From positions 1-36,392 of IMG/VR virus record IMGVR_UViG_3300020215_000100: DNA of 36,392 nt. One strand, given 5' to 3'. The DNA comes from a virus. The notes under the pieces were generated by a model that saw only the letters and a list, made by a program, of their open reading frames with translations, did not search any database and was not told the DNA's origin. Position numbers and translations under genes: made by a program. This document shows, one piece after another, positions 95 through 34,516 of this stretch; within the stretch, counting starts at the first letter, position 1, and each line of letters begins with the position of its first letter.

Positions 95-1068
95 CGCCGC
101 CTCCAAATGCCCACGTAGCCGCCACCAAGGCCGCTGGCACTTGGTGACCAGCGGGACTCGCGGCGCATGTCCCTCGCATCTTGCCTGTCGATGGCGGCGG
201 ACAAGCTGCCATGGCCATGTCTTCCGCGGTTCAGCATCATCGCCATAATTTCCTTTTCCTGTCGCAGGTGCTCTGCCCAGCGCTCCTCGGGGGAGGGCTC
301 GCTTGTCTTTGGTGGCTCAATGTTGTTGCACATTTCCGTGTGGCGAGCGGGCAGGGTGCAAAATGTGTTCTTGCCGCTGCGGATGACCACGTATCCGCAT
401 ATGGGCCCCGTCGTTGGCTTCTCTTCCTCGGGGCCGCCGAGGTAGGTGATGGTGTATTTGGTGCTGCACGCCAGCGCGCCATTTTTGACGGGGACGGGAA
501 ATTCATTGTTTGTAAAGGCGTTTGGCTTTGCCACAACTGTGTGTTCGCAACCGGTCCTCGTCCTCACCCGCATCCCTGGCTTCAGGAGCTTCGGGTCGGT
601 GACGATGTCACCGGGTTTTAGTGCCGGCGTGGCTGGGGCGGACGGATCCTCACGCGGGAGGCGCTCAAAGGTCTCCTCTCCATCGAGCCCCCTGTTGTCG
701 ATTAGCCGCCAGCTGGCTTCGATGCCCGCTTCAGGGAAGTTGTTTTTTCCCGACGATATCACCCTGCACCATCGTGAGCACTCGCCGTATTGAGATGGCC
801 CCAGCACCTCTAGGACCATGCCGCTGCTGCGCGACCGAAATTTGTCCCCAACCTTAATGTCCGCGTGTGCAGCCTCCGCCTCCTCGCGCGGGAGGCGCTC
901 GGCCGGGATGTGTTCCCAGGTGTCAGACCATCGATCTAGTGTAAACGCTCCCATTCCATTTTCGTCGCGGTACAGCCTATAGCCGCCCGAGTCTAGCTCG
1001 CTGGTCGCCTCCCACGTTTCCCCGGTGACCCTGTGCCTGAACTTATCCCCTATCTTAATGTCGCTCAT
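91..1068 (-). CDS. Hypothetical protein with repeated SH3/KOW-like modules
   Basis: This 325-residue protein has no recognised function. Its first half contains two similar modules of about 65-70 residues. Module 1 begins DIKIGDKFRHR (from about residue 3) and ends ERLPREE. Module 2 begins DIKVGDKFRSR (about residue 70) and ends ERLPRED. A third, more diverged start (LKPGMRVRTRTG) appears near residue 165. The 'xGDKFRxR' opening followed by short beta-like segments suggests small beta-barrels of the SH3/KOW type, which is an inference. The C-terminal third is charged and has a glycine-rich end. The ATG at 1068 overlaps the upstream TGA (ATGA), and the stop overlaps the next gene, so this is the middle of a coupled leftward early operon. 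Confidence 0.75.
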   Translation of the reverse strand: MSDIKIGDKFRHRVTGETWEATSELDSGGYRLYRDENGMGAFTLDRWSDTWEHIPAERLPREEAEAAHADIKVGDKFRSRSSGMVLEVLGPSQYGECSRWCRVISSGKNNFPEAGIEASWRLIDNRGLDGEETFERLPREDPSAPATPALKPGDIVTDPKLLKPGMRVRTRTGCEHTVVAKPNAFTNNEFPVPVKNGALACSTKYTITYLGGPEEEKPTTGPICGYVVIRSGKNTFCTLPARHTEMCNNIEPPKTSEPSPEERWAEHLRQEKEIMAMMLNRGRHGHGSLSAAIDRQDARDMRRESRWSPSASGLGGGYVGIWRRR

Positions 1069-1475
1069 TGCGCCCCCTCCTTCTCCAGTCTCCGTTGCTC
1101 TCTGAATTTCCTGATCTGTGCTTTAGGGATGTCCCGGTGGTCTTTGCACACCATGCCAAATATCGGAGCCGCAGTATTTTTGCACCCGGGGACTGGGCAG
1201 TATTGCTTTGGCAGCTTTCTCTTAGGCCTCAACGTTTGCCCATAAAACACACCCGCTACACGAGGGGTGAGCTGTGGCGTTGGCGGGGGCACTGGCATAG
1301 CCGTAAACGCATTGTGGGGCAGCCCTGGGGCGCCCTGCCCTGGCGCCTGCACCTGGGCCCTAATAGCGTCTAATGTCTCTCTAAGGCGCTCTGTATAGTT
1401 AGCCTCGATAGCGGCCGTAAGCTCCCTCGTAAAGTTAGCTATGATGTCGTGGATGCTGAGTCTGTCATTTGGCAT
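1065..1475 (-). CDS. Hypothetical protein with C-terminal zinc-finger-like motif
   Basis: This is a 136-residue protein and the first gene of the leftward operon. It starts at ATG 1475 behind a good ribosome-binding site (GGAGG, 8 bases upstream on the minus strand). The N-terminal 50 residues look helical (IIANFTRELTAAIEANYTER). The middle is proline-rich. The C-terminal part holds CPVPGCKNTA followed by CKDH, a C-x4-C ... C-x2-H spacing that could bind zinc, and then a basic tail. DNA or RNA binding is possible. No named family was recognised. Confidence 0.75.
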   Translation of the reverse strand: MPNDRLSIHDIIANFTRELTAAIEANYTERLRETLDAIRAQVQAPGQGAPGLPHNAFTAMPVPPPTPQLTPRVAGVFYGQTLRPKRKLPKQYCPVPGCKNTAAPIFGMVCKDHRDIPKAQIRKFREQRRLEKEGAQ

Positions 1476-1578: not shown

Positions 1579-1608
1579 TTGACACGCAATCTTTTCATAG
1601 TGGATAAT
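1579..1608 (+). promoter_or_regulatory. Sigma70-type promoter
   Basis: TTGACA at 1579-1584 is a perfect -35 box. GATAAT at 1603-1608 is a five-of-six -10 box, with an 18-base spacer. Transcription would start near A1615 and run right into the hairpin cluster, with no good start codon for about 280 bases. This is the best -35/-10 pair I found in the window. Confidence 0.7.
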
Positions 1609-1614
1609 ATACTT

Positions 1615-1840
1615 AACGCGTGCGCGGGTCAGAGCTGAGGCTATCGCAGATAGCCGAAGCAAGAGGCAACCACAGGTTGCCGGTAGCCCTAAGCGCTGCT
1701 TGCGCGCGACGCCGCTCGGTACTGGGCTTCCCAGAGAGCGCAAGCGAACACCAACCGTCCGGGCCCTGGGATAGGCAGTAGGTTTGATGGCCGCTTTTGG
1801 TGATGGGTGTGCCGCTAAGCTTTGCTTAGCTGGCCCTGCA
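1615..1840 (+). ncRNA. Candidate structured non-coding RNA (hairpin array)
   Basis: Directly downstream of the 1579-1608 promoter lie several perfect stems with three-base loops. They are GGCTATC/GATAGCC at 1639-1655 (loop GCA), GGCAACC/GGTTGCC at 1665-1681 (loop ACA), CTGGG/CCCAG at 1722-1734 (loop CTT) and GCTAAGC/GCTTAGC at 1814-1830 (loop TTT). The first stem extends through a tandem GA/GA mismatch to GCT/AGC (1634-1660), a typical sheared G-A RNA motif on the plus strand. GCTTGCGC (1698-1705) can pair with GCGCAAGC (1738-1745), enclosing the CTGGG hairpin. GGGTC (1626-1630) can pair with GGCCC (1832-1836) to close the whole set. No known RNA family was recognised. The ends are estimates, and a DNA-level role such as a replication origin is the main alternative. 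Confidence 0.45.
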
Positions 1841-1883
1841 ACCTTGAGTGACGATTCCGGTAGCTGCGTCAATGTTGGCGGGC

Positions 1884-1889
1884 TATAAT
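1884..1889 (+). promoter_or_regulatory. TATAAT -10 box, possible leaderless start
   Basis: A perfect TATAAT ends 7 bases before the ATG at 1897. If it is used, the transcript would begin at or next to that ATG and be leaderless. No good -35 box is visible at 16-18 bases upstream, so the call rests on the -10 box and its spacing. Confidence 0.4.
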
Positions 1890-1896
1890 GCTGACT

Positions 1897-2082
1897 ATGG
1901 GCAAGCGAGTCTCCGGGCGGAAGCGGAAGACTAAGAGCATTAAGGTGGACTGGCCGCCCGAGACGTTCGCCAGGTTGATTCAGGATGGCTTAATACGCGT
2001 GCTATCAGCGGAATTGACCCCATTGGGCGAGCAGGCGGTTAGGGACTATGTGAACGCGCTAGAGGCCACTAATGGCCGGTAG
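1897..2082 (+). CDS. Small basic hypothetical protein
   Basis: This protein of about 61 residues has a very basic N-terminus (GKRVSGRKRKTKSIK) and a helical C-terminal half. It may bind nucleic acid, but no family was recognised. Two in-frame ATGs compete. The one at 1888 lies inside the TATAAT box, whereas 1897 fits a leaderless transcript from that box, so 1897 is preferred. Neither has a clear ribosome-binding site. The gene overlaps the next one by 11 bases and opens a three-gene rightward operon. Confidence 0.6.
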   Translation: MGKRVSGRKRKTKSIKVDWPPETFARLIQDGLIRVLSAELTPLGEQAVRDYVNALEATNGR

Positions 2083-2958: not shown

Positions 2959-3684
2959 TCAGGCAGTCTCTTGGCTCACCGCGTAGAACCTGGCCAAGTA
3001 TTCAGCAGCGGACGCGCAGCGATTTACACAGTTACGCAGATTCCCGATCGCTAGGTTACAGCTAGAGCACAGCAGGCCCCGGACAATACCGGTCTGGTGG
3101 CAGTGGTCGATAACCAGTTCCTCGGCTGTGCCACAGATGGCGCATAGTCCATCCTGGGCCTTACTCATTCCCGTGTACTGTTCTTCGCTAAGGTCATATT
3201 GCTTCAGCCGTCGAAGCAGGCGCACCCGGTCGATACAAGCCCGACATTTGCGCCGCTTACCAGGGGCCTCAAGCGGAGTTTGGCACGCCTCGCAAACGCG
3301 AACGCCGCCCACCCTGGACTTGACCTTTTTCAAATGGTTACATCGCAAAGAGCAAAATCGCGCCCTGAAGGCCTGGAATTGTATGCCACAGGTTTCGCAC
3401 ACAAATGTTTTCTTTGGGCGCCTAACATACCACGCATACTCACCCTGCCGCCTGCATGGGACCGAGCAGTACGTGCCGGCAATAAACTGGGTCTTAAACC
3501 CCGCGCCACACACCTTGCAGGTTTTGTCAAAAACATCTGGCACCGCATCGCCGCGGTTCACATGTTCCATAATTAGCGCCACGTACTCCTGTCGACGGCG
3601 CTCCCGTGCCCTGTTTTTGCAAGGTTTCGAACAGTAGGCGGCGCCACCGTTAACCTCGGCGCTGCATTCCTTGCACAGCCTCAC
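2959..3684 (-). CDS. Endonuclease VII-family nuclease with four N-terminal zinc ribbons
   Basis: A 241-residue protein. The C-terminal domain (about 165-240) matches the recombination endonuclease VII / His-Me finger family: C181-x2-C184, the catalytic-type DHCH motif (D193, H194, H196), then GLLCSSCN with C206 and C209. Family members resolve branched DNA or act as homing-type nicking enzymes. Ahead of it are four Cys-rich units: C4/C7/C18/C22, C56/C59/C73/C77, C96/C99/C111/C115 and C131/C134/C147/C150, each likely to bind one zinc. Such a tandem set is unusual next to this nuclease domain. It starts with GTG at 3684 behind a purine-rich site. It stands alone on the minus strand between two rightward groups, as mobile nuclease genes often do. 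Confidence 0.85.
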   Translation of the reverse strand: MRLCKECSAEVNGGAAYCSKPCKNRARERRRQEYVALIMEHVNRGDAVPDVFDKTCKVCGAGFKTQFIAGTYCSVPCRRQGEYAWYVRRPKKTFVCETCGIQFQAFRARFCSLRCNHLKKVKSRVGGVRVCEACQTPLEAPGKRRKCRACIDRVRLLRRLKQYDLSEEQYTGMSKAQDGLCAICGTAEELVIDHCHQTGIVRGLLCSSCNLAIGNLRNCVNRCASAAEYLARFYAVSQETA

Positions 3685-6448: not shown

Positions 6449-6665
6449 CGACGTCACCGATGCGCCGTTCTTTGAGACGCTAATTGATCGGCTTGATGAC
6501 ATCCAGGCGATGCACATTAATAGCCGCGATTTAGAAAGCCTTATTATTAAGCTGTCTCACGACGTCCACCCGCTAGTTATTGCGGACGCGGCCAACCTGC
6601 GCGGGCTAAAGAAAATCGCTACGATGGCCCGGCGCCTGGCCCGCAGAGAGATGGGCCGTGAATAA
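6438..6665 (+). CDS. Hypothetical protein upstream of terminase
   Basis: A 75-residue protein starting at ATG 6438 with GGAGG six bases upstream. The first half is acidic (FFETLIDRLDDIQAMH) and the last 20 residues are basic (KKIATMARRLARREMG). It overlaps the terminase start by 8 bases, implying coupled translation. It could be a small terminase partner, but no family was recognised. Confidence 0.6.
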   Translation: MESNDVTDAPFFETLIDRLDDIQAMHINSRDLESLIIKLSHDVHPLVIADAANLRGLKKIATMARRLARREMGRE

Positions 6666-8151
6666 TCTCGCCGGCGCCGACATCGCCTGGAAGCCGCTTC
6701 CGGCGCAAGAGCTGGCGATGACCTGCCCGGCCCGCGAGGTGGCTTACGCAGGTGAAAAGGGAGCTGGCAAGTCCGAATGGCTGGCCGCGTGCTGGTTCCC
6801 GCTGCTGACGCTCGCGCATAAGAAGTGGCAAGAGACCGGTCGCCCCCAGCATCGTTGCCGCATCATCATTTTCCGTAAGAACATGTCCCACCTAGAGGAC
6901 TTGATCGCTAAGACCAAGTTCCTCTACCCGCTGTTTGACCCAGCCATGGGCATCGCTGGCTGGAACATAAACAAATCACGTTGGACGTTTTCAAGCGGCG
7001 CAACGGTGGAATTCCACCATTTGGACGGCCCCAATGACCATCTCGGCTACCACGGGCAAGAGCTCGTTGGTATCGGCTTTGACCAGATAGAGCAGACCGA
7101 AGAACACGTCTATCGGTTCATTATCGCCAACCTTCGTTCCGGCGATTCCGACTACCACGCCAACCGCATGGTCAGGTGTACGGCAAACCCGGGCGGCTTC
7201 GACTGGATTATCCCGTACTTCCACATCGACCAGTGCCCCCAGGGCGGCAAGGTCTTTGTCGACAAGATCACAAACAGCGACGGCTCGGTGCACGAATACA
7301 CCCGCTGTTTCATCCGCGCCAAGTTGCGGGACAACAAGCACCTGCCGGCTGACTACGAAGCACAGCTAAGGGCCACGCTCACCGAGGATGAGGTGGCGAT
7401 GTTCCTGGAGGGCGACTTCTTCCGGGTGGCCGGCAGCTATTTCAGCAAGTTTATTCGCCCGAAGCTGCACTTCCAGAAGTCGCGCCCCCTGCCCTCTTCC
7501 TATGAATGGCGGTATGGGATTGACTGGGGCTCGACAAACCCGGCCTGCTGGCTTCTCGCCGCACGTGATAATGACGGCACGGTCTATATCGTCGATGAGC
7601 TTCATCGGCCAGGTATCAGCGGCCGCCACTTTGGCGAACTTCTCGCCAGGAAATTCGCGAATCAAAACTGGTGCGAAGATAAACACTTTGCTGTCGATGA
7701 ACACTGGGGCGTCATCGATAAGCAGGCGCTCGATAAAGACAACGGCGACGCCACGGCAGGCGCTGGGATTATGGAATGCGGGTTCCGCCTATTCCCGGCA
7801 CAGAAGAACCGGGAGGCCGGATGCAACCAGCTTAAGGAGCGATTCCTGCTTAACGCTGATGGCTCCCCTCGCCTTGTCGTTTTCGAGGACCGCTGCCCCA
7901 ACCTTGTTCGCGCGCTAAGCGCCATCAAATCACAGGCACCGAAAGACCCGGAGGATTACGAGGAGCATTCGCCACACTCTCACGCCGTAGATGCCCTGCG
8001 CTTCGTACTGATGGAAATGCCGGTGGACACCGTTAGCCCGAAAGACCCGCGGGACGTTGAAGTAGAGCGCTGGTTGAAATACATGCGCGACTCTCAGCGG
8101 GCGAAGCAGCCGACGGACCGATACACCACTACGACCGGGTACGGCGACTAA
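6658..8151 (+). CDS. terL: Terminase large subunit (packaging ATPase/nuclease)
   Basis: A 497-residue protein that pumps DNA into proheads and cuts the concatemer. The ATPase domain has Walker A GEKGAGKS at residues 32-39 and a Walker B-like strand ending GFDQIEQ around D142. Here the residue after the Asp is Gln rather than the usual Glu. The C-terminal RNase H-type nuclease domain shows YGIDWGSTNP with D289, VYIVDELH, and HAVDALRF with D445, the expected acidic residues. The length equals that of the P22 enzyme (about 499). GTG 6658 overlaps the preceding gene by 8 bases. It opens the late morphogenesis block and is followed directly by a Cys-rich protein and the portal. Confidence 0.93.
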   Translation: MNNLAGADIAWKPLPAQELAMTCPAREVAYAGEKGAGKSEWLAACWFPLLTLAHKKWQETGRPQHRCRIIIFRKNMSHLEDLIAKTKFLYPLFDPAMGIAGWNINKSRWTFSSGATVEFHHLDGPNDHLGYHGQELVGIGFDQIEQTEEHVYRFIIANLRSGDSDYHANRMVRCTANPGGFDWIIPYFHIDQCPQGGKVFVDKITNSDGSVHEYTRCFIRAKLRDNKHLPADYEAQLRATLTEDEVAMFLEGDFFRVAGSYFSKFIRPKLHFQKSRPLPSSYEWRYGIDWGSTNPACWLLAARDNDGTVYIVDELHRPGISGRHFGELLARKFANQNWCEDKHFAVDEHWGVIDKQALDKDNGDATAGAGIMECGFRLFPAQKNREAGCNQLKERFLLNADGSPRLVVFEDRCPNLVRALSAIKSQAPKDPEDYEEHSPHSHAVDALRFVLMEMPVDTVSPKDPRDVEVERWLKYMRDSQRAKQPTDRYTTTTGYGD

Positions 8152-15675: not shown

Positions 15676-15701
15676 GGGGGCGGGGCTTCGGCTCCGCCCC
15701 C
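15676..15701 (+). terminator. Very stable TTCG hairpin after coat genes
   Basis: GGGGGCGGGGC (15676-15686) pairs with GCTCCGCCCCC (15691-15701) through a TTCG tetraloop closed by C-G: eleven pairs with one G-T wobble. It lies 14 bases after the stop of the beta-helix gene. No T-run follows, so it may be a partial terminator or a barrier that protects the 3' end of the coat mRNA. Confidence 0.65.
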
Positions 15702-15761
15702 AGGGGGCCTTCGATTTCAAACTATCGCAGACCCGTTAGATACACGGAAGGTGAAACGTTA

Positions 15762-15965
15762 ATTGCGTGTTCCGTGTGCGGGTTTCCACAGCTGTATCCG
15801 AGTGAACTGCGGCTGTGCGACGACAAGCTTTTTTACTGCTTTCGTCACCGTGAATTTGAAGACGGCAAGACGGAGCTAACCGATAGCCGCGAGCGCGCTT
15901 CACAGAAGCCCCGGCTAGACAACGCTAACCCGCCCGTAATCGGGCGCAAACCGAGCTGGAGATAA
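15762..15965 (+). CDS. Small Cys-rich zinc-finger protein, possible ATT start
   Basis: A 67-residue protein if read from ATT 15762. It carries CSVCGFPQLYPSELRLC and then a further C-x2-H, a treble-clef-like set of ligands, and a basic tail. GGAAGGTG at 15746-15753 lies eight bases before ATT 15762. The only other in-frame start, GTG 15774, has no ribosome-binding site and would remove the first Cys of the CxxC pair. ATT starts are very rare, so the start is uncertain. The gene ends on the first base of the gp4-like gene. Function unknown, but it is packed between head and tail genes. Confidence 0.6.
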   Translation: MACSVCGFPQLYPSELRLCDDKLFYCFRHREFEDGKTELTDSRERASQKPRLDNANPPVIGRKPSWR

Positions 15966-23666: not shown

Positions 23667-25301
23667 ATGTCGGAAGACAGAGAACGCGTCAAACAAATGT
23701 TCACGTCCCTGCGCGCCAAGGGGTTTGGGGACGAGGAAATCCTCGCGGCCTATGACCGGTGGAAGGCCAAGCAGGCGCCTGCGCAACCACGCAGCGCGTC
23801 CCTTGAACCGGATGTCTTTGCCGACAGACCAGCTGGACTGCGTATGCCCGGCACGGCGCAGGAAACACCGTCGCCTACGCCGCAGGCTGAACCCGGGGTC
23901 CTTTCGAGTATTTATCGTTCGATTGCGGCGCCATTGTTAACAATCGATCCGCGTGCCTCGGAAGAAGAAATGCGAGAGCACGTAAGGGACAGCGCCGCCT
24001 CGTCTGTTGGGCTTATGACTGGCGGGGCGACGAACGTCGCTCTCAAGGCGGCACCTAAGGCAATTGGCCCGGTAACAAAGGGCGTTGTTGGCTCGTATGT
24101 GACCGGCAAGGCCGCAAGGGCAGCTGGCGCTGATGCCGTCGGTGAGGATGCAACCGCGGCAGCGAATAACGAAGATGCAACGGACGCCGACATGCTTATC
24201 GGCGGGGCGGTTCCACTGCTTGGGATGACCGCTGCAGTAGGATCGGATGCCTTGCGCAGGATGAGCAAGTGGACCAAGCGCTATGGCGAAGCCAGGGAGG
24301 CCGGCGTCTTTAATCGCCCAGATATGAGAGGTGTGCCATCCAGCGAAGAAGGCAAGCAAATTGTCGCCGATCGCGCCCAGCAGACAATTGCTAAGAAGTC
24401 GATAGAAAAACTTAGGGCCGTCGGTGAAAAACACGAAGCGGCCAAGCTTTCCCTTGAACGCAACACGCCCTATCACGACTCTTCTCCGGCGATCGCCGCA
24501 CTTGACGAAATAGCGAAGAAAAACACCACCGCAAGAACCGGGGCGATAAGAGACGATGCCCTTGACGCCGCAATTCAAGAGGCTCGTCGCCTTATGGACA
24601 TTGACCCGGAGACGGGCCTTGCGCATATCGATGACCTCTTGGAGGCGCGGCGAACCTTGGCGGCGCGGGCGAAATACGGGAAAAATCAGACGCCAACCAG
24701 GGAAAACTTAGCGTACAAGAAAATTGAACGGGCAATCGATAAGGCCATACCGGACGAGATTAAAGAGATCGACGACGCATATCATGCCCAGGCAACCGAA
24801 AACGAGCGCCTAAACGACGCCCTCTATCGTAAGCGTGTAAAGAATGTTTCGCGCGGCGTGCGCGAAGATGGCACGCCGGACATTGATTCCGCTCTTGAAG
24901 AGGCAGGGGCCAGGCGCATCGCTAGATATGCAGACGATACACTCCCCTCGTATTCACAGCGTCGAGCCATGGAGCGTATCCGGAGGATGGACCCCGCATA
25001 CGCGGAGCAACTTGATTTAGCCACCGCCCAAGCGGCGAAGATGGCAACGCTCCCTGGCGGTAATCGTGTGCAGGACACGATGTCGGCCCTTGTTAAGCAA
25101 GGGCAGATTGTTCCGTTCTTGCAGCAAAATGCGCGTGCTTTTTCAGCACGCGCCGCCGATCCGGCCCTGACGGCAACTCGCGATCTCCTGGCTGAACGCC
25201 CGCTGTCCGCATCCGTTGGCGCCATCATCAACGCCCGCCTGGCCGAAAAAGAGCGCGACGAAGAACGAGCCCGCAAACTCAAGAAGGGCGGGAAGCGCTA
25301 G
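23667..25301 (+). CDS. Putative ejection / internal virion protein
   Basis: A 544-residue protein, third of the ejection-type set. The N-terminus (VKQMFTSLRAKGFGDEEILA) looks like a small helical domain. Residues about 105-195 are rich in G, A and V (GVVGSYVTGKAARAAGADAV) and may insert in membranes. The rest is charged helical coiled coil up to a lysine/arginine-rich end. It has no recognised catalytic motif. Its stop overlaps the end of the leftward gene at 25298 by four bases. Confidence 0.65.
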   Translation: MSEDRERVKQMFTSLRAKGFGDEEILAAYDRWKAKQAPAQPRSASLEPDVFADRPAGLRMPGTAQETPSPTPQAEPGVLSSIYRSIAAPLLTIDPRASEEEMREHVRDSAASSVGLMTGGATNVALKAAPKAIGPVTKGVVGSYVTGKAARAAGADAVGEDATAAANNEDATDADMLIGGAVPLLGMTAAVGSDALRRMSKWTKRYGEAREAGVFNRPDMRGVPSSEEGKQIVADRAQQTIAKKSIEKLRAVGEKHEAAKLSLERNTPYHDSSPAIAALDEIAKKNTTARTGAIRDDALDAAIQEARRLMDIDPETGLAHIDDLLEARRTLAARAKYGKNQTPTRENLAYKKIERAIDKAIPDEIKEIDDAYHAQATENERLNDALYRKRVKNVSRGVREDGTPDIDSALEEAGARRIARYADDTLPSYSQRRAMERIRRMDPAYAEQLDLATAQAAKMATLPGGNRVQDTMSALVKQGQIVPFLQQNARAFSARAADPALTATRDLLAERPLSASVGAIINARLAEKERDEERARKLKKGGKR

Positions 25302-25708
25302 TGGACATCGCCCGCGACTTCATCTATCGGAATGCCGAGCTTCGTCGCAAGCTCAGCAATGATCTCGTCGCTCACCGTGGCGCCGTCATCAATCCGATAC
25401 CCAATCACATCGCCCTTATGGGTAACCATAAGGCTTACGCCGGTGGGAAACCCGCGCTTTCTCAGCGCCTCTACAACGCTTCTGATGTGTGCGGCCATGG
25501 GGCGCATACTAGCAACGAACTTACCCGTGCGTCTAAAAACAGCGTCGCCAAGATCATCCTCAAGGCGCATCAAGCAATCCCGGAGGCTTTCCACGAGTCC
25601 GCCGCCGACCATGCTCTGGGAGTGAATTTCAGCCGCACCCTCGGGTATCGCAGCGGCAACATACCAGCGTTGGCCATCGTCCGTATTGGCGCTGATGGTT
25701 AGACACAT
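25298..25708 (-). CDS. Antisense hypothetical protein with own promoter
   Basis: A 136-residue protein on the minus strand inside the late block. It looks like a well-folded alpha/beta protein: SLRDCLMRLEDDLGDAVFRR, then VSLMVTHKGDVIGYRIDDGA and an acidic helix. It has no recognised domain. On the minus strand TGTTATAAT (25723-25715) ends six bases before ATG 25708, so the mRNA would start at the ATG and lack a leader. The opposite reading frame (25301-25702) is less protein-like. Its place, after the third ejection gene and before the fibres, matches where P22 has its immI and sieA genes, so an immunity or exclusion role is possible. Confidence 0.6.
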   Translation of the reverse strand: MCLTISANTDDGQRWYVAAAIPEGAAEIHSQSMVGGGLVESLRDCLMRLEDDLGDAVFRRTGKFVASMRPMAAHIRSVVEALRKRGFPTGVSLMVTHKGDVIGYRIDDGATVSDEIIAELATKLGIPIDEVAGDVH

Positions 25709-25714
25709 AGCCTA

Positions 25715-25723
25715 ATTATAACA
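25715..25723 (-). promoter_or_regulatory. Extended -10 promoter, leaderless start
   Basis: The minus strand reads TGTTATAAT, a perfect TGn-TATAAT. The first base of ATG 25708 is seven bases after the box. This is the expected start point of transcription, so the message is probably leaderless. No strong -35 box is visible. Confidence 0.6.
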
Positions 25724-25757
25724 CGAAGTTAGTTTTTAGTTTAGGAGCTTATAACTT

Positions 25758-26150
25758 ATGTCAGTCGTTACTCACTTTACGCCCCCGACTCCGTCGGTGG
25801 CCAACAACGCCGTTAGTGTTGTTTTCGACAGCACCCGTTCCTTTGCGAGTGCGCCGTCGTCAACCACCGTCGGTGATTTCCGCGGCCGCCATCCAAGCAC
25901 CCGCATTGCAGGCGTCGCCCTCTGCACAGACCAAAACGTCACCCTCCGCCTCGACTACCTCAAAAGCGATGGCACCTGGGTCACCGGCGCCAAAAGTCAG
26001 ACGTGCACGGCCGGTACCGACCAGCCCATCGACTGGCTTGCGTCTGCGTCTGACTGGCGCGTAGTGGTCGCCAACGGCGCCACTGGCCCCACGGCGCTGA
26101 CCCTGTACGGCTGGCACATCACCAAGGGCGATCGCGCCAGCGGAGCATAG
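25758..26150 (+). CDS. Putative virion surface protein
   Basis: A 130-residue beta-rich protein with low charge (NAVSVVFDSTRSFASAPSST, then CTDQNVTLRLDYLKSDGTWV). The pattern of strands suggests a small jelly-roll or immunoglobulin-like domain found in phage decoration or fibre-associated proteins. ATG 25758 has AGGAG about 11 bases upstream. It begins the fibre gene group after the antisense gene. Confidence 0.6.
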   Translation: MSVVTHFTPPTPSVANNAVSVVFDSTRSFASAPSSTTVGDFRGRHPSTRIAGVALCTDQNVTLRLDYLKSDGTWVTGAKSQTCTAGTDQPIDWLASASDWRVVVANGATGPTALTLYGWHITKGDRASGA

Positions 26151-26153
26151 CCA

Positions 26154-26984
26154 ATGGCGATTGCCGATACCTCATATTTCCCACAGCGCCCTCCACCCGC
26201 CGACGCCAAGTACGTTACGCAGACTGCGGATTCAACGCTATCTGCCGAGCAGTCCCTGGGGACGTTGACCACCGGCCTATTGCTGAACACTGTCACCGGA
26301 AGCACCGGCGTACTTTCCAAGGCGACATACGGCACCGATTACGATATCCCACGCAACGTCGAGGAGACCGAGGCCAAGCGCGCCTACGAGGCGCTGGGCA
26401 CTGCGAATCTAAACTTCTGGTTCTATCCGGTTTCATACGTTGGAACCGGCGGCATCGCTGGCGCCTCGAACAGCGGCAGCGGAGCCCAATCGGTGCAGGC
26501 GGGCGCGTATCAGCTCGCCACGGGCGCAACCGCAAACTCTTGGACGCGAATCTTTGCGTTTAACGACGGCGCCGATTTCGGGAAGAGCATTCGCACCGGG
26601 CAGAACTGGTACATCTCCGCGCGCTACAAGCTGACGACGGCTATCGATAACCAGGTGATCGCGTTTTGCGGGGCTGGCGACTCTGCCGGTGCACAGCTCG
26701 GAATGGGCGTTTTCGGGTCTACCAGCACAACCAATTTTCATCTCAGCGGGCCAAGCGGAACCGCCATCAACGGCGGCGTGGCCATAGATACCGCATTCCA
26801 CACGCACCGTGCGTACCGCGTCGGCGCCACAACCACCTACCAAATCGACACTAGCACAGCGGTCACCGGTGACGTAAACATCGCGACCGATCTGACCCCG
26901 TATTGCTACATCCAAAACGGAACCACTGCGGCGGCCCGCACGATGCAAATCGTGTGGATCTGCGCCGCGAGCCCCTCCTTGTAA
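26154..26984 (+). CDS. Tail fibre / receptor-binding protein A
   Basis: A 276-residue protein. Its N-terminus MAIADTSYFP, then YVTQTADSTLSAEQSLGTLT, resembles a common phage fibre adaptor segment. The C-terminal 180 residues (from NFWFYPVSYVG) are beta-rich and look like a lectin-type receptor-binding domain. The N-terminus is similar to that of the fibre at 28022, so both may attach to the same virion site. ATG 26154 follows GGAG by nine bases. Confidence 0.7.
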   Translation: MAIADTSYFPQRPPPADAKYVTQTADSTLSAEQSLGTLTTGLLLNTVTGSTGVLSKATYGTDYDIPRNVEETEAKRAYEALGTANLNFWFYPVSYVGTGGIAGASNSGSGAQSVQAGAYQLATGATANSWTRIFAFNDGADFGKSIRTGQNWYISARYKLTTAIDNQVIAFCGAGDSAGAQLGMGVFGSTSTTNFHLSGPSGTAINGGVAIDTAFHTHRAYRVGATTTYQIDTSTAVTGDVNIATDLTPYCYIQNGTTAAARTMQIVWICAASPSL

Positions 26985-26986
26985 TC

Positions 26987-28018
26987 ATGGCGGAAAACAG
27001 CTCTGTCAGGGCGAAGCTCGGTGCTTTCCTCAAGGTTCAATCGAACCCTGCAGCGTCCGACTCGCCCATGGCGGAGGTGAAGCGCGCGGCATTCGACGCT
27101 TCCACTGGCGCAGCTCAAAACGGCCACGCTGTGATCGGCCTGGTACTTGGTAACGAGGGCACCGCCCAGGTACCAATTAAGGTCGATGCCGGGAACTACT
27201 CGTACACCTCAATTGGCGAGTTTGCCAAGGTCATCCCGATCGCTCTTTTCACCCCATACGTCCAATTCAATGGAGCGGGCTCGCCATCGGTAATTAACCG
27301 TTTCGCCGCCGTCGTTATCCCGCACACGGCCGTGTTTTCTAACGGCGCCGTCAGTATCACCAACGCGGCGACGCTCTACCTCGACGGCGCTCCTGACATC
27401 AACGCTGACGCCACGGTGACCGGCCAGAATCTGGCGATCTGGGTCGACGGCGACGACGTGCGCTTCGACGAGTCCATTTGGTGGGGGCAGGACGGGGCGC
27501 CATTTGAGGACGTGGTCGGCAGCGAAAACTCCCCCATCTCTTCCAATGGCCACTGTCGCCGACGGTTCAACAACGTCACCAAGGGCATGGAGCTTTCTAT
27601 CGACGGTGAACAGTACCGCCCCTGGCCGATGGCTCTCAATTACTTTGAAAACTTCGACCCTCCTAGCCAGGAATACCCGGTTGGAGAGACGACCGTACGG
27701 ACGGTTCTGCCGTCGTCGGTGTCCTCGCGAAAGGGGCAGTGGACGATCATCCCCCACCGATGGACCCTTCCTGCCGCGGTCAACGTCTCAGGCGGCCAGC
27801 TGCGACCCGGCATCCGCATCGAAGTGAATACCGGCTCTGCCCAGCTCTCGCAAAACACAGACACCAGCGGGGAAATACAGGTTGCCCGCGATTCGATGTA
27901 CTTGGCTCTGGCCAACTCCTACACGGTTAAGTTGAGGCTCGTCGTCAACAACACAAGCGCGTCGCCACAGACCGCAGACATTGGGAACTTTCAGTGCGAG
28001 GCGACGTTTATCGGATAA
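26987..28018 (+). CDS. Putative fibre or virion structural protein
   Basis: A 343-residue beta-rich protein starting at ATG 26987. It contains GYVL-free strand pairs such as AATLYLDGAPDINADATVTG and QNLAIWVDGDDVRFDESIWW. It lies between two fibre genes. No family was recognised. Neighbours, low cysteine content and strand-rich composition point to a virion surface role. Three bases separate it from the next start. Confidence 0.6.
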   Translation: MAENSSVRAKLGAFLKVQSNPAASDSPMAEVKRAAFDASTGAAQNGHAVIGLVLGNEGTAQVPIKVDAGNYSYTSIGEFAKVIPIALFTPYVQFNGAGSPSVINRFAAVVIPHTAVFSNGAVSITNAATLYLDGAPDINADATVTGQNLAIWVDGDDVRFDESIWWGQDGAPFEDVVGSENSPISSNGHCRRRFNNVTKGMELSIDGEQYRPWPMALNYFENFDPPSQEYPVGETTVRTVLPSSVSSRKGQWTIIPHRWTLPAAVNVSGGQLRPGIRIEVNTGSAQLSQNTDTSGEIQVARDSMYLALANSYTVKLRLVVNNTSASPQTADIGNFQCEATFIG

Positions 28019-28021
28019 CCA

Positions 28022-29734
28022 GTGGCAATAGCTAATACCTCATATCATCCAGCGTCAGCCGGCGCAGGCGCAGGCACTGACGAGGCGTATATTACCGTCG
28101 CCACAGACGGAGATTTATCCAACGAACGGGCCCTTGCCGCCGAATCTGGCGTCCTGACCATCACGGATGGCGGTGCTAACGGCAATATAACCATTGGCGT
28201 CGCCACGGACGGCATCACTAACGCCAAGCTACGCAACAGCGGCGCCCTAAGCGTAATCGGGCGTAGTGCGAACAGCGCCGGCGACCCTGCCGATATTTCC
28301 GCTACTGCCGCGTCTGGGGCCGTCCTTCGCGAGTCGGGTAGCGCCATCGGCTTCGGGACAATCTCCACCGACGGCTACGCCGATAATTCCGTCACATACG
28401 CCAAGATGCAAGACGTCTCGGCGACCGACCGCCTCATCGGGCGGGACACCGCCGGAGCGGGCGACCCCGAGGAAATATCCGTCGGCGGCGGGCTAGAGTT
28501 CACAGGATCAGGTGGGATTAGGCGCTCGGCGCTTACGGGGGATGTAACGGCGGCTGCCGGGAGCGGCAGCACCACAATCGCAAATGACGCTGTCACTACA
28601 GCCAAGATCCTGGACGACAACGTCACATACGCCAAAATCCAAAACGTCTCAGCGACTGACAGGATCTTGGGCCGCGACACCGCCGGTGCCGGTGACATTG
28701 AAGAGCTGACAGTTGGCGGAGGTCTGGAATTCACCGGGGGCGGTGGCATACAGCGCTCCGCACTGACCGGCGACGTTACCGCCACGGCCGGCTCAAACGC
28801 CACCACTATCGCGAACAACGCCGTCACGAACGCCATGATTCGCGATAGCGCCGCCCTGTCGGTCATCGGGCGCTCGGCCAACTCAGCCGGGGACCCCGCT
28901 GATATCGCCGGTACCGATGGGCAGGTTTTGCGGGTCTCGGGGACGACGCTCGGGTTTGGACAGGTCGCCACGGCCGGCATCGCGGATGATGCAATCACCG
29001 CCGATAAGCTTGGCATTCTGACGACCAAGGGCGACCTGATCACATACACGACCCTACCCGCCCGTCTTGCAGCCGGCACTGACGGCCACGTACTCACAGC
29101 TGATTCCAGCCAGGCAGCAGGCATTAAGTGGGCCGCAGCGGCCGCAAGCGGTGGCGGGGCACGGGATCGGTATTGGGCAGGCACACAGGGGGGAGATCAG
29201 TATTACCGCATAGCTGGACTTAATGGGAATCGCACGCTCGCGGCCGGGGCCATGACCACCGGCAGATTATACGCCCTGCCGTTCTTTACCGGGTCAGACA
29301 CTGTAACGATAACCAAGCTGACTATTTACGTCAGCACGCTGGCAGCCAGTGGCGTAGCGCGGCTGGGGATCTATAGCCCCACCAGCACGACCAACATGGC
29401 GCCGAGCGCGCTTGTTGTCGACTCCGGGGAATTCGCTACAACCACCACCGGGAAAAAGCAACAGACCGTAAGCGCAGCACTAAGTGCCAATACCCTTTAC
29501 TGGGCCGTTGCCATTTTCGGGACCGCAGCGCCGTCGGTTGCGGCGATGGACTCAACAAACCACGCCGATGCGATGATTGCCATTGGGAATAATCTGCTGA
29601 ACGCTACAAATACTGTTCAAATTGGGTTTTACCGCTCGGTCGCCTACGGCGCCCTGCCGGACCCGTTCGGTTCGGCCACGATTTTTTCATTTGCTGACAT
29701 TGACCCGATACCGGCGATTGGCGTGGCCCCATAG
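28022..29734 (+). CDS. Long tail fibre / receptor-binding protein B with internal repeats
   Basis: A 570-residue protein starting at GTG 28022. The N-terminus MAIANTSYHP, then YITVATDGDLSNERALAAES, matches the adaptor of the 26154 fibre. Residues about 123-199 and 200-276 are two tandem copies of a 77-residue unit (VTYAKMQDVSATDRLIGRDT in the first). LSVIGRSANSAGDPADI occurs before and after them. These beta-repeat shafts are typical of trimeric fibres. The C-terminal 190 residues (from RDRYWAGTQGG) form a separate beta domain, probably the receptor-binding tip. Confidence 0.75.
   Translation: MAIANTSYHPASAGAGAGTDEAYITVATDGDLSNERALAAESGVLTITDGGANGNITIGVATDGITNAKLRNSGALSVIGRSANSAGDPADISATAASGAVLRESGSAIGFGTISTDGYADNSVTYAKMQDVSATDRLIGRDTAGAGDPEEISVGGGLEFTGSGGIRRSALTGDVTAAAGSGSTTIANDAVTTAKILDDNVTYAKIQNVSATDRILGRDTAGAGDIEELTVGGGLEFTGGGGIQRSALTGDVTATAGSNATTIANNAVTNAMIRDSAALSVIGRSANSAGDPADIAGTDGQVLRVSGTTLGFGQVATAGIADDAITADKLGILTTKGDLITYTTLPARLAAGTDGHVLTADSSQAAGIKWAAAAASGGGARDRYWAGTQGGDQYYRIAGLNGNRTLAAGAMTTGRLYALPFFTGSDTVTITKLTIYVSTLAASGVARLGIYSPTSTTNMAPSALVVDSGEFATTTTGKKQQTVSAALSANTLYWAVAIFGTAAPSVAAMDSTNHADAMIAIGNNLLNATNTVQIGFYRSVAYGALPDPFGSATIFSFADIDPIPAIGVAP
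28390..28850 (+). repeat. Tandem 77-codon repeat in tail fibre gene
   Basis: Two adjacent copies, at about 28387-28617 and 28618-28850, encode nearly the same 77-residue unit. DNA identity is highest in CGTCACATACGCCAA and GACACCGCCGG blocks. Many differences are at third codon positions, so the copies are not very recent. Repeats like this can recombine and change fibre length. Confidence 0.65.
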
Positions 29735-29743
29735 GAGTAACTA

Positions 29744-30004
29744 ATGCATGCGACGCCGCAGAAAACTGATAATTGGGAAAGTAATCACGGATGGGCAGCA
29801 GTTGCCATCCTCGCGATTGGCCTCTTTATTGGCGTGGCTAAAGGACCCGAGGATTCTCGCGGTCTTGGGAGCGCTCACGCTGCGGGGGCTAGATCGGCTG
29901 AGCGAGGAGATAACGGGAACGGTGCTGGTAATTGCAGTGGGCGGCAAGGCAACGCGGTGGACGGCGGCGACGGTGGGGAGACTTGTACAGAAGATAAAAG
30001 GTAA
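29744..30004 (+). CDS. Possible small membrane protein (holin candidate), frame 1
   Basis: This 86-codon frame starts at ATG 29744 behind AGGAG and has a hydrophobic segment at residues about 16-33 (WAAVAILAIGLFIGVAKG), as in a one-span holin. Its C-terminal half is glycine- and asparagine-rich and looks less like a normal protein. It almost wholly overlaps the second frame that starts four bases later. Its place, before a lipoprotein protease and near lysis genes, fits lysis, but evidence is limited. Confidence 0.35.
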   Translation: MHATPQKTDNWESNHGWAAVAILAIGLFIGVAKGPEDSRGLGSAHAAGARSAERGDNGNGAGNCSGRQGNAVDGGDGGETCTEDKR

Positions 30005-30008
30005 ATAG
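29748..30008 (+). CDS. Small basic protein overlapping frame 1
   Basis: This 86-codon frame starts at ATG 29748 with the same ribosome-binding site. It has a basic N-terminus (MRRRRKLIIGK), moderate hydrophobic stretches at about 33-47 (DPRILAVLGALTLRG) and 57-66 (TVLVIAVGG), and a basic end. Codon third positions are GC-rich in its later two-thirds, so it is likely the main frame there. It could be a small membrane-associated lysis protein. No family was recognised. Confidence 0.5.
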   Translation: MRRRRKLIIGKVITDGQQLPSSRLASLLAWLKDPRILAVLGALTLRGLDRLSEEITGTVLVIAVGGKATRWTAATVGRLVQKIKGK

Positions 30009-30009
30009 C

Positions 30010-30639
30010 ATGTTGAAGCACTTGGTTAGTTTCGCTGTCGGATGTTCGGTTTTTCTCTCTGGCTGCGGGACAGCCAAGGCTTATGCGACCCCGGCCACCA
30101 CGGTAGAGGTCATCGAGAGCCGCGACGCTGGGCATACCCCGCCTTCGCAGCCGTTCGTACTGGAAGAGATAAACGCCTTTTCCATCGAGGCACTGATTGA
30201 GGAGCTGGACAGCGCCGTCAAAGCCGGCGCCAAGAGCATCACCCTGAAGATCAACTCGCCCGGTGGGTCCGTGTTCGCCGGGTTCGAACTGGTGCGAAAG
30301 ATGGAAGAGCTAGGCGTTCCCGTCCACTGCAAAGTTGACGGGGCGGTCGCCAGCATGGCCGTCTACGTCCTCGAAAGCTGCACCACTCGCACCATGACCA
30401 AGCGCAGTTTTATGATGCTCCATGGCCCTGGGGCGTATGGCGAGATGGGCGGCCAGGCGCATGAGTTCGCAAACATGGCCGAGTTCCTGCGTATCCTGCA
30501 GGCGGCGTATGTCGCGCACATTGCGGACCGAGTCGGCGTAGACCCAGCGGTTATTCAGGCGAAAATCGACGGCGGCCGCGAATGGTGGCTGACGCCCCAA
30601 GAAGCATTGGCCGCGAAACTAATAGACGCGGTCAAATAG
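30010..30639 (+). CDS. ClpP/SppA-like serine protease with lipoprotein signal
   Basis: A 209-residue protein. The N-terminus is a lipoprotein signal peptide with lipobox LSGC at residues 16-19, so C19 would be lipidated and the enzyme anchored in a membrane. The rest has the ClpP/crotonase fold: KINSPGGSVFAGFELV at about 80-95 (oxyanion loop), GAVASMA with the nucleophile S115, and MMLHGPGAYG with H138. The third catalytic position, normally Asp (as in ERDtW), is E191 in GGREWWLTPQEA. The end matches 'EALaakLIDaV'. Similar enzymes serve as phage head proteases, but those lie near the portal and lack a lipobox. Here the gene lies among fibre and lysis genes, so the substrate is unknown. Confidence 0.8.
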   Translation: MLKHLVSFAVGCSVFLSGCGTAKAYATPATTVEVIESRDAGHTPPSQPFVLEEINAFSIEALIEELDSAVKAGAKSITLKINSPGGSVFAGFELVRKMEELGVPVHCKVDGAVASMAVYVLESCTTRTMTKRSFMMLHGPGAYGEMGGQAHEFANMAEFLRILQAAYVAHIADRVGVDPAVIQAKIDGGREWWLTPQEALAAKLIDAVK

Positions 30640-30647
30640 CAACTCTA

Positions 30648-30656
30648 TGTTATAAT
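30648..30656 (+). promoter_or_regulatory. Extended -10 promoter element
   Basis: TGTTATAAT is a perfect TGn-TATAAT, 20 bases upstream of ATG 30677. It is identical to the element at 25723-25715 on the other strand. No -35 box is apparent. It would serve the endonuclease gene separately from the late operon. Confidence 0.5.
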
Positions 30657-30676
30657 TTAGCGGCCTAAAGTTTAAT

Positions 30677-31012
30677 ATGGCCGACGCGATTAAGGTCCCA
30701 TCACCTAAAACGCTTGCCAAATACGGCCTAGATCAGGCTGGGTGGCTAGAGATTCTCGCCCGCCAAGGTGGCGTGTGTGCAGTGTGCAAGCGCGTACCAG
30801 CGTCCGGCAGGCTCTGTACAGACCATGAACACGTGCGCGGCTATAAAAAGATGCCGCCAGAGGAACGCCGCCGACGGGTACGTGGAATCCTATGTTTTTT
30901 CTGCAACCACTATTATGTAGGGCGAGCAATCACCGTCGAGAAGTCGCGGAACGTTTCCGCTTACCTTGAGGCTTACGAGGCGCGGCTTTCCTCCGTCTGG
31001 CTTCCTCGTTAG
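30677..31012 (+). CDS. Endonuclease VII-family HNH nuclease
   Basis: A 111-residue protein, about the size of a minimal endonuclease VII. It has C34-x2-C37 in GVCAVCKR, the DHEH active-site motif (D49, H50, H52) and C73-x2-C76 in GILCFFCNHY, a zinc-stabilised His-Me finger. Family members resolve branched DNA before packaging or act as homing enzymes. It is the second such gene in the window. Its 3' end overlaps the end of the leftward operon by 83 bases. It has no clear ribosome-binding site. Confidence 0.8.
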   Translation: MADAIKVPSPKTLAKYGLDQAGWLEILARQGGVCAVCKRVPASGRLCTDHEHVRGYKKMPPEERRRRVRGILCFFCNHYYVGRAITVEKSRNVSAYLEAYEARLSSVWLPR

Positions 31013-31145
31013 CTAGCCATTCTCTGGCGTCGTCTATCGCGCAGCAACGCCCGCACGCTTCGGGGCCTTCGCGCTTACAAGCGAAATCCCACTCATGTCT
31101 CGACTCGGCGGTAATCCGCCGCAAGAGTGTGATCGGCCCGCTCAC
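30930..31145 (-). CDS. Small basic hypothetical protein, end of leftward operon
   Basis: A 71-residue protein. GTG 31145 overlaps the TGA of the gene before it (GTGA), which supports coupling. It has EACGRCCAIDDA in the middle and a very basic tail (RKPQGKRKRSATSRR). Its 3' part is antisense to the end of the endonuclease gene (83 bases shared), a convergent overlap. No family was recognised. Confidence 0.55.
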   Translation of the reverse strand: MSGPITLLRRITAESRHEWDFACKREGPEACGRCCAIDDAREWLANEEARRRKAAPRKPQGKRKRSATSRR

Positions 31146-31441
31146 ACCGCCTCGATCTCAATATACGCGTCCTCTACCGTCGGATCTGACGCCGCATAGT
31201 CAACCCTGACGACAGGTGTCGTCCTATCTTCGTCGGCCTCGGCCTCGCGCAGTTCGCAGGTCTTAGCGTATGACTGAAATGCCGCCGCCACGCGCTCGGC
31301 CACGTAGGAATACAGAGCTTGTTGATCTAATTTATCGAGCTTTGCGATAAAGTCTATATAAACGCCAGGCGGCAGGCGCCGCCGCGAGGCTATGGCGGAG
31401 TGAAAGGCTGTGTCCGCCCAGCTTTTGGCTAAATCGATCAT
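31142..31441 (-). CDS. Hypothetical protein downstream of lysin
   Basis: A 99-residue protein starting at ATG 31441, overlapping the lysin stop (ATGA). It looks like helices (residues about 1-65, including LDKLDQQALYSYVAERVAAA) followed by an acidic beta C-terminus. No membrane segment is visible, so it is not an obvious holin or spanin. Confidence 0.65.
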   Translation of the reverse strand: MIDLAKSWADTAFHSAIASRRRLPPGVYIDFIAKLDKLDQQALYSYVAERVAAAFQSYAKTCELREAEADEDRTTPVVRVDYAASDPTVEDAYIEIEAV

Positions 31442-31929
31442 TTGTACCTCCCATAGTCCAGAAAGCCGAGAATTTCGCCTATTTTTCTCTTCCGATAATA
31501 GACTCCATCGCCCTCCCGTTCCCCGCCGTAGTCAGTATTCCCCTCAACGGTATGCACCTCGTGGTTACTGTTCATTTCGACGATTCCCGCGTGGCCCTTC
31601 CCGCCGCCCTTGTCGATAATGAAAATATCACACGGCCCTAGCTCCTTTACTCGTACGATATCCGGAGCCAGCTCCCACAGGCGCAAGACCCCAGATGTCC
31701 GCGGCAGCGGACTGCGCATATCTAGAATATCCGCCGCCTCTTGATAGCAGTAGCGCACGAACCGCACGCACCACGCTTCTCGTTTTGCCGGGTCGGCGCC
31801 GCAGGCCAGGTGATATTTGTCCACCTGGCGCCCACGGTTACGCGACGACTCGCGGACGCCTACCTGGGTCAGGGCGATTTCAAGCGCCCGCTCCTTGAGG
31901 TCTTGGTACGTGAACGGATTCGTCGCCAT
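31438..31929 (-). CDS. CHAP-type peptidoglycan hydrolase (endolysin)
   Basis: A 163-residue soluble protein. It has EAWCVRFVRYC with catalytic C54, GHAGIVEMN with H113 and TVEGNTDYGG with E129/N131, the Cys-His-acid layout of CHAP/NlpC-type amidases or endopeptidases. The N-terminus (ALEIALTQVGVRE) resembles the usual opening helix. It cleaves peptidoglycan at lysis. No signal peptide is present, so a holin is needed for release. It lies in the leftward operon with replication genes, unlike the fibre-side lysis cassettes of many phages. Confidence 0.85.
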   Translation of the reverse strand: MATNPFTYQDLKERALEIALTQVGVRESSRNRGRQVDKYHLACGADPAKREAWCVRFVRYCYQEAADILDMRSPLPRTSGVLRLWELAPDIVRVKELGPCDIFIIDKGGGKGHAGIVEMNSNHEVHTVEGNTDYGGEREGDGVYYRKRKIGEILGFLDYGRYK

Positions 31930-31944
31930 GCTATCCGCACCTCA

Positions 31945-32301
31945 TCAGCCAACCACGCGGCTATCGCCTGTACCAGCCAGTGTTTCCGCATCCAGACACC
32001 CCTGGTATGTGAAGCCGCTAAGAAGCGTATCGAGCCCGATAACGCCCTCGAAGGCCTTGCCGTCGATTGAGTACGTGCAGCGCCAGACGCGTCCAGTGCC
32101 CGTTGGTTGCTGCAACATAATATGGATGCTGTTGTCATCCGCTACCCACCAATCGCATTTACGCGGCTGGTACGCCTGTCCCCGCAGCTCTGACATTGCC
32201 CTCGCCTCCCTTATCTTTGAATCATTGTTCATCGCGATAAACACAAACACAGGCAGCGCCACGAGGGCCGCTACCAGCAGAACGGTAGTCGTAGCGCCCA
32301 T
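31945..32301 (-). CDS. Membrane-anchored hypothetical protein (lysis-associated?)
   Basis: A 118-residue protein with one N-terminal membrane segment (TTVLLVAALVALPVFVFIAM, about residues 5-24) and a soluble part with two Cys (RKCDWWVADD and RVWRCTYSIDG), perhaps a disulfide in the periplasm. It lies just upstream of the lysin in the same operon. It could be a signal-anchor holin partner or spanin-like protein, but it matches no family that I recognise. Confidence 0.6.
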   Translation of the reverse strand: MGATTTVLLVAALVALPVFVFIAMNNDSKIREARAMSELRGQAYQPRKCDWWVADDNSIHIMLQQPTGTGRVWRCTYSIDGKAFEGVIGLDTLLSGFTYQGCLDAETLAGTGDSRVVG

Positions 32302-32304
32302 TGA

Positions 32305-32562
32305 TTACAGCTCTTCGCGGGCGATGGAGTTGGCCCAACAGCTCGTGTTCCAATAGCCCCGCTCGTTTTTCTTACTTGTTACCGTCACGGTCGCGGTGAC
32401 GTAGTCACCTTCAGAGAGCCTGCCGGCTGATTCCTTGACGCCATCTTGCCAGCAACGAAGTGCCAGCGCCGCCTTGCCAGCGCCGCCCTCATCGACGATT
32501 AGCGTGATCGACTTCGCATCCTTCTCAATAGCCGTTACAACTCCGGTCACTTTCGCGTTCAT
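32305..32562 (-). CDS. OB-fold protein, possible single-stranded DNA binding
   Basis: An 85-residue protein. The strand pattern (KVTGVVTAIEKDAKSITLIV, then GDYVTATVTVTSKKNERGYW) and NTSCWANSIA fit a small OB-fold similar to phage SSB-like (DUF3127-type) proteins with aromatic residues for stacking on bases. GGGAG lies just before ATG 32562 on the minus strand. It sits near the ERF and nuclease genes, which supports a role in DNA replication or recombination. Confidence 0.6.
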   Translation of the reverse strand: MNAKVTGVVTAIEKDAKSITLIVDEGGAGKAALALRCWQDGVKESAGRLSEGDYVTATVTVTSKKNERGYWNTSCWANSIAREEL

Positions 32563-32660
32563 ATCGATCTCCCTTGCATGTGTTCTGTTTCAGAAAAATG
32601 CCCCCTGTTTTGCGCTGGAAATGGTAACAGCGCTTACGGCCGGGGGCCCGCCGCGAAGAG

Positions 32661-32900
32661 CTACGCCGGGGAGGTAACGGCCGGCTCACTCTCAGTTGGC
32701 AATGCCGCCTTTGCAGCACGAGCCCCACGTGGTGCAAGGTTGGCGTTTTTGCCAAGTTCCCTACGCTCTTCTTCCAAATACTTCGCCCTTCTCGGGTCCA
32801 GGCGAATGCAGTTGGAGCATTTGCAGAGATTGTTCGTCGGCTTGCTCGAAAATGATTTGAATTCGATGCCGCCAAAATCAGAAACCAGCTCATCATCCAT
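32661..32900 (-). CDS. Small Cys-containing hypothetical protein
   Basis: A 79-residue protein. The motif CKCSNCIRLDPRRAKYLEEE has three Cys close together, and a basic alanine-rich tail follows. The ribosome-binding site AGGAGG lies seven bases before ATG 32900. It overlaps the end of the nuclease gene by eight bases. No family was recognised, and possible metal binding is an inference. Confidence 0.65.
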   Translation of the reverse strand: MDDELVSDFGGIEFKSFSSKPTNNLCKCSNCIRLDPRRAKYLEEERRELGKNANLAPRGARAAKAALPTESEPAVTSPA

Positions 32901-33885: not shown

Positions 33886-34516
33886 GGGCCGCCTCAATTA
33901 GCTTGTCAATCTCAGTGGCATACAGCTGCTTCAACGACGTGATCGTCCGGCCGGTTTTCTCCTGTGCCCACTTGGCGTTTTCGGCGGGCCCCTTCCCCAG
34001 TAGCTTGGCCAGCTCGGCCACCTTCGCCGTGGGGGCGGCGGCGGCCTCCTCTGCCGCCTTTTGCGCATTTAACATTCCGTCGCGGAAATCTTTTCCCGCT
34101 GGTGCAACATTGGCTCCGTTGCCAACCGCCGCCGGCGCCCTCGGCTCCGACGCCCCATCGTTGTCCTCTGGGGCCAAGCTGAGAATTGCCATAAGCGAGT
34201 AACGACGAGCGTAGGTAACAGCAGCGCCAAGTGACTGCGGGTCGTTCTGCCGAGCCGGCGTCAGCGGGTACAGGTACGGCCCAATTACTTCGCCGCTGGC
34301 GTGGAAGAGCACAGTCTCCAGGGCATGCCCGCCGTTGGCAGAGTCGCTAACCCCCTGCACTGGGATCAGGTCGTTGTCCATGAGCGCCCCAAGGCACGTG
34401 TCGTACACGCCTTGCAAGTCCACATATCGGCTCTTGAAGTGCGGATTTACCGACTCCTTAAGCAGCGGGCCCATCGCTTTGCGCGCTTTAATTAGCGCTG
34501 CAATTGCATTTTTCAT
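33875..34516 (-). CDS. erf: ERF-family single-strand annealing protein
   Basis: A 213-residue protein. HFKSRYVDLQGVYDTCLGAL and SLGAAVTYARRYSLMAILSL followed by EDNDG are hallmark ERF-type segments. The middle is a flexible A/P-rich linker, and the C-terminus (TSLKQLYATEIDKLIEAARG) is helical, as in P22 Erf. It anneals single strands and promotes recombination or genome circularisation. It pairs with the Cas4/AddB-like nuclease, which its gene overlaps by 11 bases, and lies near the OB-fold protein. Confidence 0.85.
   Translation of the reverse strand: MKNAIAALIKARKAMGPLLKESVNPHFKSRYVDLQGVYDTCLGALMDNDLIPVQGVSDSANGGHALETVLFHASGEVIGPYLYPLTPARQNDPQSLGAAVTYARRYSLMAILSLAPEDNDGASEPRAPAAVGNGANVAPAGKDFRDGMLNAQKAAEEAAAAPTAKVAELAKLLGKGPAENAKWAQEKTGRTITSLKQLYATEIDKLIEAARGQ

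Follow-up and report, generated by a model that had tools for sequence, protein, structure and literature searches.

The closest described counterpart in layout is the putL element of phage HK022, ~70 nt of RNA which forms two stem-loops directly 3' of the promoter PL and acts on RNA polymerase via the β' zinc-binding domain (PMC9378689). Structured 5' leaders of phages in general are untranslated and stand directly before the first gene of an operon. Paired operators are also common at divergent phage control regions, and those of the lambda type are 17-bp palindromes with centres ~24–26 bp apart.

The leader analysed here resembles each of these in some respects. It lies in a window (the whole stretch of DNA that was analysed) of 36,392 nt from a linear virus record, in which end repeats are absent. 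As in put, two hairpins (H1 and H2, at about +19 to +66) are located near the promoter of a long operon, but this operon encodes packaging and structural proteins and is not an early one. The resemblance to put is used here as a working analogy in layout and not as a statement of membership. The leader shares its structured, untranslated position before the first gene with other phage leaders, none of which was found to be related to it in sequence. H1 and H2 are also paired 17-bp palindromes in a divergent control region, with centres 26 bp apart, but unlike lambda-type operators they lie within the putatively transcribed leader and not over the promoter.

Gene layout and promoter at the divergence point

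The leftward genes (minus strand, 1475 to 91 and 36223 to 31142) encode a DnaB-like helicase, an Erf-like annealing protein, an exonuclease and an endolysin. The rightward genes (plus strand, 1888 to ~31012) form the packaging and structural set, with a large terminase of the ordinary type (6658–8151), a head-tail adaptor/portal (from 8461), a major head protein (from 13777), a head protease (from 30010), and also tail and connector proteins. The single exception inside this run is the minus-strand gene at 2959–3684, which is endonuclease VII-like. Between the replication/recombination genes on the left and the terminase/structural genes on the right lies a non-coding gap of 412 bases (1476–1887), which is the largest intergenic gap of an otherwise dense genome and is located at the divergence point. 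This gap would serve the phage as its divergent control region. It contains a 100-bp AT-rich stretch (1501–1600, GC 0.36). The first gene of the rightward operon (1888–2082, plus strand, 64 aa) has a coding score of +16, and a family search with its protein found no family. An HTH protein weakly resembling small terminases (phrog_57, E 5e-4) is encoded at 2072–2308 on the plus strand.

A strong promoter had been proposed in the gap, and our scan supported it. The sigma-70-type promoter (1579–1608, plus strand) consists of TTGACA (1579–1584), 18 nt and GATAAT (1603–1608). It scores 11/12 and is the sole site of at least 10/12 on both strands of the whole window. The rightward transcript is expected to start near 1615. 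A search for plus-strand terminators in 1400–2200 found none before the operon's first gene, so the leader and the operon would be on one RNA. A weak promoter-like site was also observed on the minus strand (1604–1632, CTGACC-17-TATTAT, 9/12). Its -10 element overlaps that of the plus-strand promoter, so the two promoters could exclude each other.

Coding potential was assessed by codon statistics trained on the confident genes of the window. The coding signal was absent in every frame of 1616–1887, in agreement with the earlier view that the region holds no real protein frame. The minus-strand frame 1528–1872 and the small plus-strand frames were considered as genes and rejected, as they scored not coding. 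A 33-codon open frame at 1787–1888 (plus strand) carries a Shine-Dalgarno-like stretch (AGTAGGT), has the hairpin H4 inside it and ends in TAATG, which overlaps the start codon of the gene at 1888. Its coding score is low, yet it is too short to be excluded as a gene.

Hairpins and folding of the leader

The preliminary description listed four stems with three-base loops in the leader, and all of them are present in the sequence. H1 (1639–1655, GGCTATC-GCA-GATAGCC) has a 7-bp stem, which is extended by tandem G.A mismatches and three pairs to 1634–1660, also as described. H2 (1665–1681, GGCAACC-ACA-GGTTGCC) and H4 (1814–1830, GCTAAGC-TTT-GCTTAGC) have 7-bp stems too, and H3 (1722–1734) is CTGGG-CTT-CCCAG. 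Perfect hairpins with a 7-bp stem and a 3-nt loop were observed three times in 1579–1840 versus 0.024 expected, and three such hairpins appeared in 0 of 3000 dinucleotide shuffles of this segment, with the caveat that stems of at least 7 bp across the whole window numbered 23 versus 9–27 in 20 shuffles. A second trio of hairpins sits near 25063, and several hairpins of this size occur in the coding DNA of the window.

The sequences of H1 and H2 agree at 12 of 17 positions (five of the seven stem pairs and two of the three loop bases). The chance of such likeness between two random hairpins of that composition is ~0.004. The differing stem pairs, 4 and 6, change from U-A to A-U and from U-A to C-G, with both sides altered and the pairing preserved. 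This pattern suggests that H1 and H2 are diverged copies maintained as hairpins, a weak internal covariation from one comparison, and it could also arise from symmetric change in duplicated operators. The 3' arm motif GRTWGCC occurs a third time as GGTAGCC (1682–1688), which in the minimum-energy fold is an alternative partner for the 5' arm of H1.

In the same fold, a stem of ~1619–1632 with 1693–1708 closes around H1 and H2 and delimits a 5' domain (1616–1712). This domain folded better than its shuffles (z -3.7, 1 of 400 shuffles as good), and so did the core at 1632–1690 (z -4.5), both with boundaries picked after inspecting the sequence. For H1 alone (1634–1660), the z-score was -4.1 and 0 of 400 shuffles were as good. 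When the whole window was scanned evenly in 110-nt segments, the best plus-strand segment in this region was 1596–1705, whose z of -2.1 had rank 101 among about 1,300 (~best 8%). The z-scores of the other segments were -1.1 (1695–1750), +1.3 (1712–1812) and -1.9 (1800–1845). For the long segments, z was -0.68 at 1617–1860, where 53 of 200 shuffles were as good, and -0.61 at 1616–1836. The proposed structured RNA of 260 bases is therefore not borne out, because 1617–1860 folds like its shuffles, and the expected advantage in folding energy holds for the first ~97 nt but not for the whole region. The unusual part of the leader is its first ~100 nt; the remainder to 1887 has no significant structure. 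Correcting this extent is the main result at present.

Three further pairings had been proposed, and all of them are complementary in sequence. They are a possible long-range 8-bp stem enclosing H3 (1698–1705, GCTTGCGC, with 1738–1745, GCGCAAGC), a stem closing the whole region (GGGTC 1626–1630 with GGCCC 1832–1836, one G-U) and a "switch" pairing (CGCTC 1713–1717 with GAGCG 1736–1740). None of them is thermodynamically favoured in the 1616–1860 transcript, where the mean pair probabilities were 0.02–0.03, 0.06 and 0.07, respectively, versus 0.99 for H2, 0.89 for H4, 0.38 for H1 and 0.15 for H3. The 1713/1736 pairing reached 0.59–0.88 in transcripts with the 3' end at 1750–1800. When the full proposed architecture was enforced, its energy was -101.4 versus a minimum of -102.5, i.e. 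~1 kcal/mol higher, so by this model the complete architecture is a possible fold but not a favoured one. In the modelled growing transcript, H1 formed first, with probability 1.0 up to 1690, and H2 was constant at 0.99. With the closing stem of the 5' domain present, H1 fell to 0.34–0.38, in competition with pairing of its 5' arm to part of 1682–1688.

Relatives of the phage and of the leader

The first gene of the leftward unit (1065–1475, minus strand) encodes a small protein with a CPVPxCxN..APIFGMVC motif, of a Myxococcota-type family. All of its 25 relatives in genome contigs are from MAGs titled Myxococcales/Myxococcota, Deltaproteobacteria or Proteobacteria, often at multiple loci within one genome. 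On the basis of this family, the host is likely a member of Myxococcota. A distant phage portal (26% identical) together with head genes was found in contigs of two Myxococcota-phylum genomes (G025:C24 and G110:C104). In the scanned stretches of these distantly related phages, comparable leader hairpins or a comparable promoter were absent. G110:C104 has the same divergent layout, with early genes on the left, terminase/portal on the right and a 213-bp gap.

DNA searches found no homologue of the leader in phage records, and the exact H1+H2 pattern had no match in genome contigs. Two matches of the exact H2 pattern in viral contigs were rejected, as they represent a hairpin that resembles a terminator, follows a gene and is unrelated. 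Searches of IMG/VR for neighbours with the 1888–2082 protein, the terminase and the single-sequence portal each gave none. The 1065–1475 protein retrieved one contig of 94.8 kb from IMG/VR, without terminase and without the leader region. Another contig was found there via the 2072–2308 protein (L003/L004), and its short DNA matches were dismissed as CCGG-rich chance. A portal alignment gave 15 loci at ~25% protein identity, which makes them too distant for RNA comparison, and the leader model matched none of them. In 379 Myxococcota genomes, DNA search yielded 21 short matches, mainly in the GC-rich 1685–1741. The best of these (L034, 33 bases) is not significant across the 379 genomes, and in the match covering H1 (L037) the stem is broken.

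A covariance model, R1, was also employed. It was built from the single leader sequence entered twice, which makes its E-values approximate and its range limited; over 284 Myxococcota genomes its best E was 0.3, in one genome. R1 found no leader homologue in the retrieved loci. It also gave no match in HK022 24000–34000, where it served as a model of the present leader only and where the put elements are unannotated in the record. An Rfam scan of the whole window detected no family at gathering score. P37 (RF01678) gave a weak 22-bit match at 1633–1679 on the opposite strand (gathering score 50), which was taken as chance because below-cut-off matches of the P37 model occur in 9 of 14 control genomes.

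Possible functions of the leader

The best explanation, held tentatively at a probability of about 0.42, is that the rightward operon begins with a structured 5' leader and that this leader influences the operon in cis, through a put-like effect on polymerase or through protection of the mRNA 5' end. The host-type sigma-70 promoter (1579–1608) would start the transcript of the packaging and structural genes. The first ~100 nt would fold as they emerge, H1 with its G.A extension and then H2, and the GC-rich outer stem would later close around both. The leader may then affect the polymerase during elongation, as the put antitermination RNA does; alternatively, it may shield the long mRNA at its 5' end. 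Since the leader and the operon would be one RNA, a cis role is the simplest possibility. Put-like antitermination taken alone, which is suggested by analogy, is rather improbable. It is very doubtful that the leader represents a new class of protein-independent antitermination leader, unrelated to put in sequence, working with a Myxococcota-type polymerase on a packaging/structural operon of ~29 kb.

H1 and H2 might instead be DNA operators, through which a dimeric phage repressor would block the promoter from +24 to +66 and whose palindromes would give the RNA fold as a by-product. The frequent occurrence of paired operators in divergent phage control regions is consistent with this idea, as are five GRTWGCC-like half-sites in 1639–1688, a weak third site (CGTTACCTCCGGTTGCT, 3 mismatches, 1479–1495) just before the leftward start codon, and the HTH protein of the phage. 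However, the two good palindromes and the weak one are inside leaders rather than over the promoter, and other matches in the window with at most 2 mismatches are only at chance level. H4 falls outside the consensus. Pairs 4 and 6 are changed jointly in both halves, which an operator does not need, and the G.A extension of H1 is meaningful in RNA but not in a DNA operator. The symmetric changes and the extension favour RNA pairing. We regard operators as unlikely, though worth serious consideration as the main rival to the cis-acting leader. The same weight is given to an ordinary GC-rich untranslated leader, in which the hairpins cluster by chance and whose sole role is to separate the two promoters. 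The z-scores of the whole leader (-0.68) and of 1712–1812 (+1.3) fit this explanation, and hairpins of similar size occur several times in the coding DNA of the window. It is opposed by the absence of three such hairpins in 3000 shuffles, by the core z of -4.5 and by the 412 bases left free despite the dense genome.

The preliminary description had also raised a regulatory RNA, a packaging RNA and an origin. The first idea survives as a leader with a promoter and non-random hairpins, but hardly as a separate small RNA that acts in trans after being freed from the leader through processing or premature termination. Such an RNA would have its own strong promoter and a compact 5' domain, but a plus-strand terminator of its own is absent in 1400–2200, no Rfam family was found at gathering score, and the P37 match is on the opposite strand and at chance level; we consider it highly improbable. 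A replication origin or a packaging signal/RNA is extremely improbable. The position at the divergence point beside the AT-rich stretch and the small-terminase likeness of the HTH protein would suit it, but iterons are absent, DnaA-like boxes are at chance level (33 vs 29), and a phi29-type RNA is not expected beside the ordinary large terminase.

Overall, the promoter is real and the short structured leader is probably real too, and ordinary in kind so far. Its likely role is local and regulatory, and a new RNA machine of 260 bases is the less probable reading. Should the 5' domain have a function, the phage would carry an orphan regulatory leader at its main control point, and few phages of its probable hosts, the Myxococcota, have been characterised. 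Should this leader act on polymerase, RNA-only antitermination would have a second, independent example.

Two minor observations were made within the rightward operon itself. The gene at 2959–3684 (minus strand), endonuclease VII/HNH-like, opposes the operon and resembles a homing insertion. The gap 15676–15785, after a structural gene, carries a GC-rich hairpin (GGCTCCGCCCCCAGGGGGCC) that is a possible internal terminator, and its folding energy is low on both strands (z -3.6 and -3.7).
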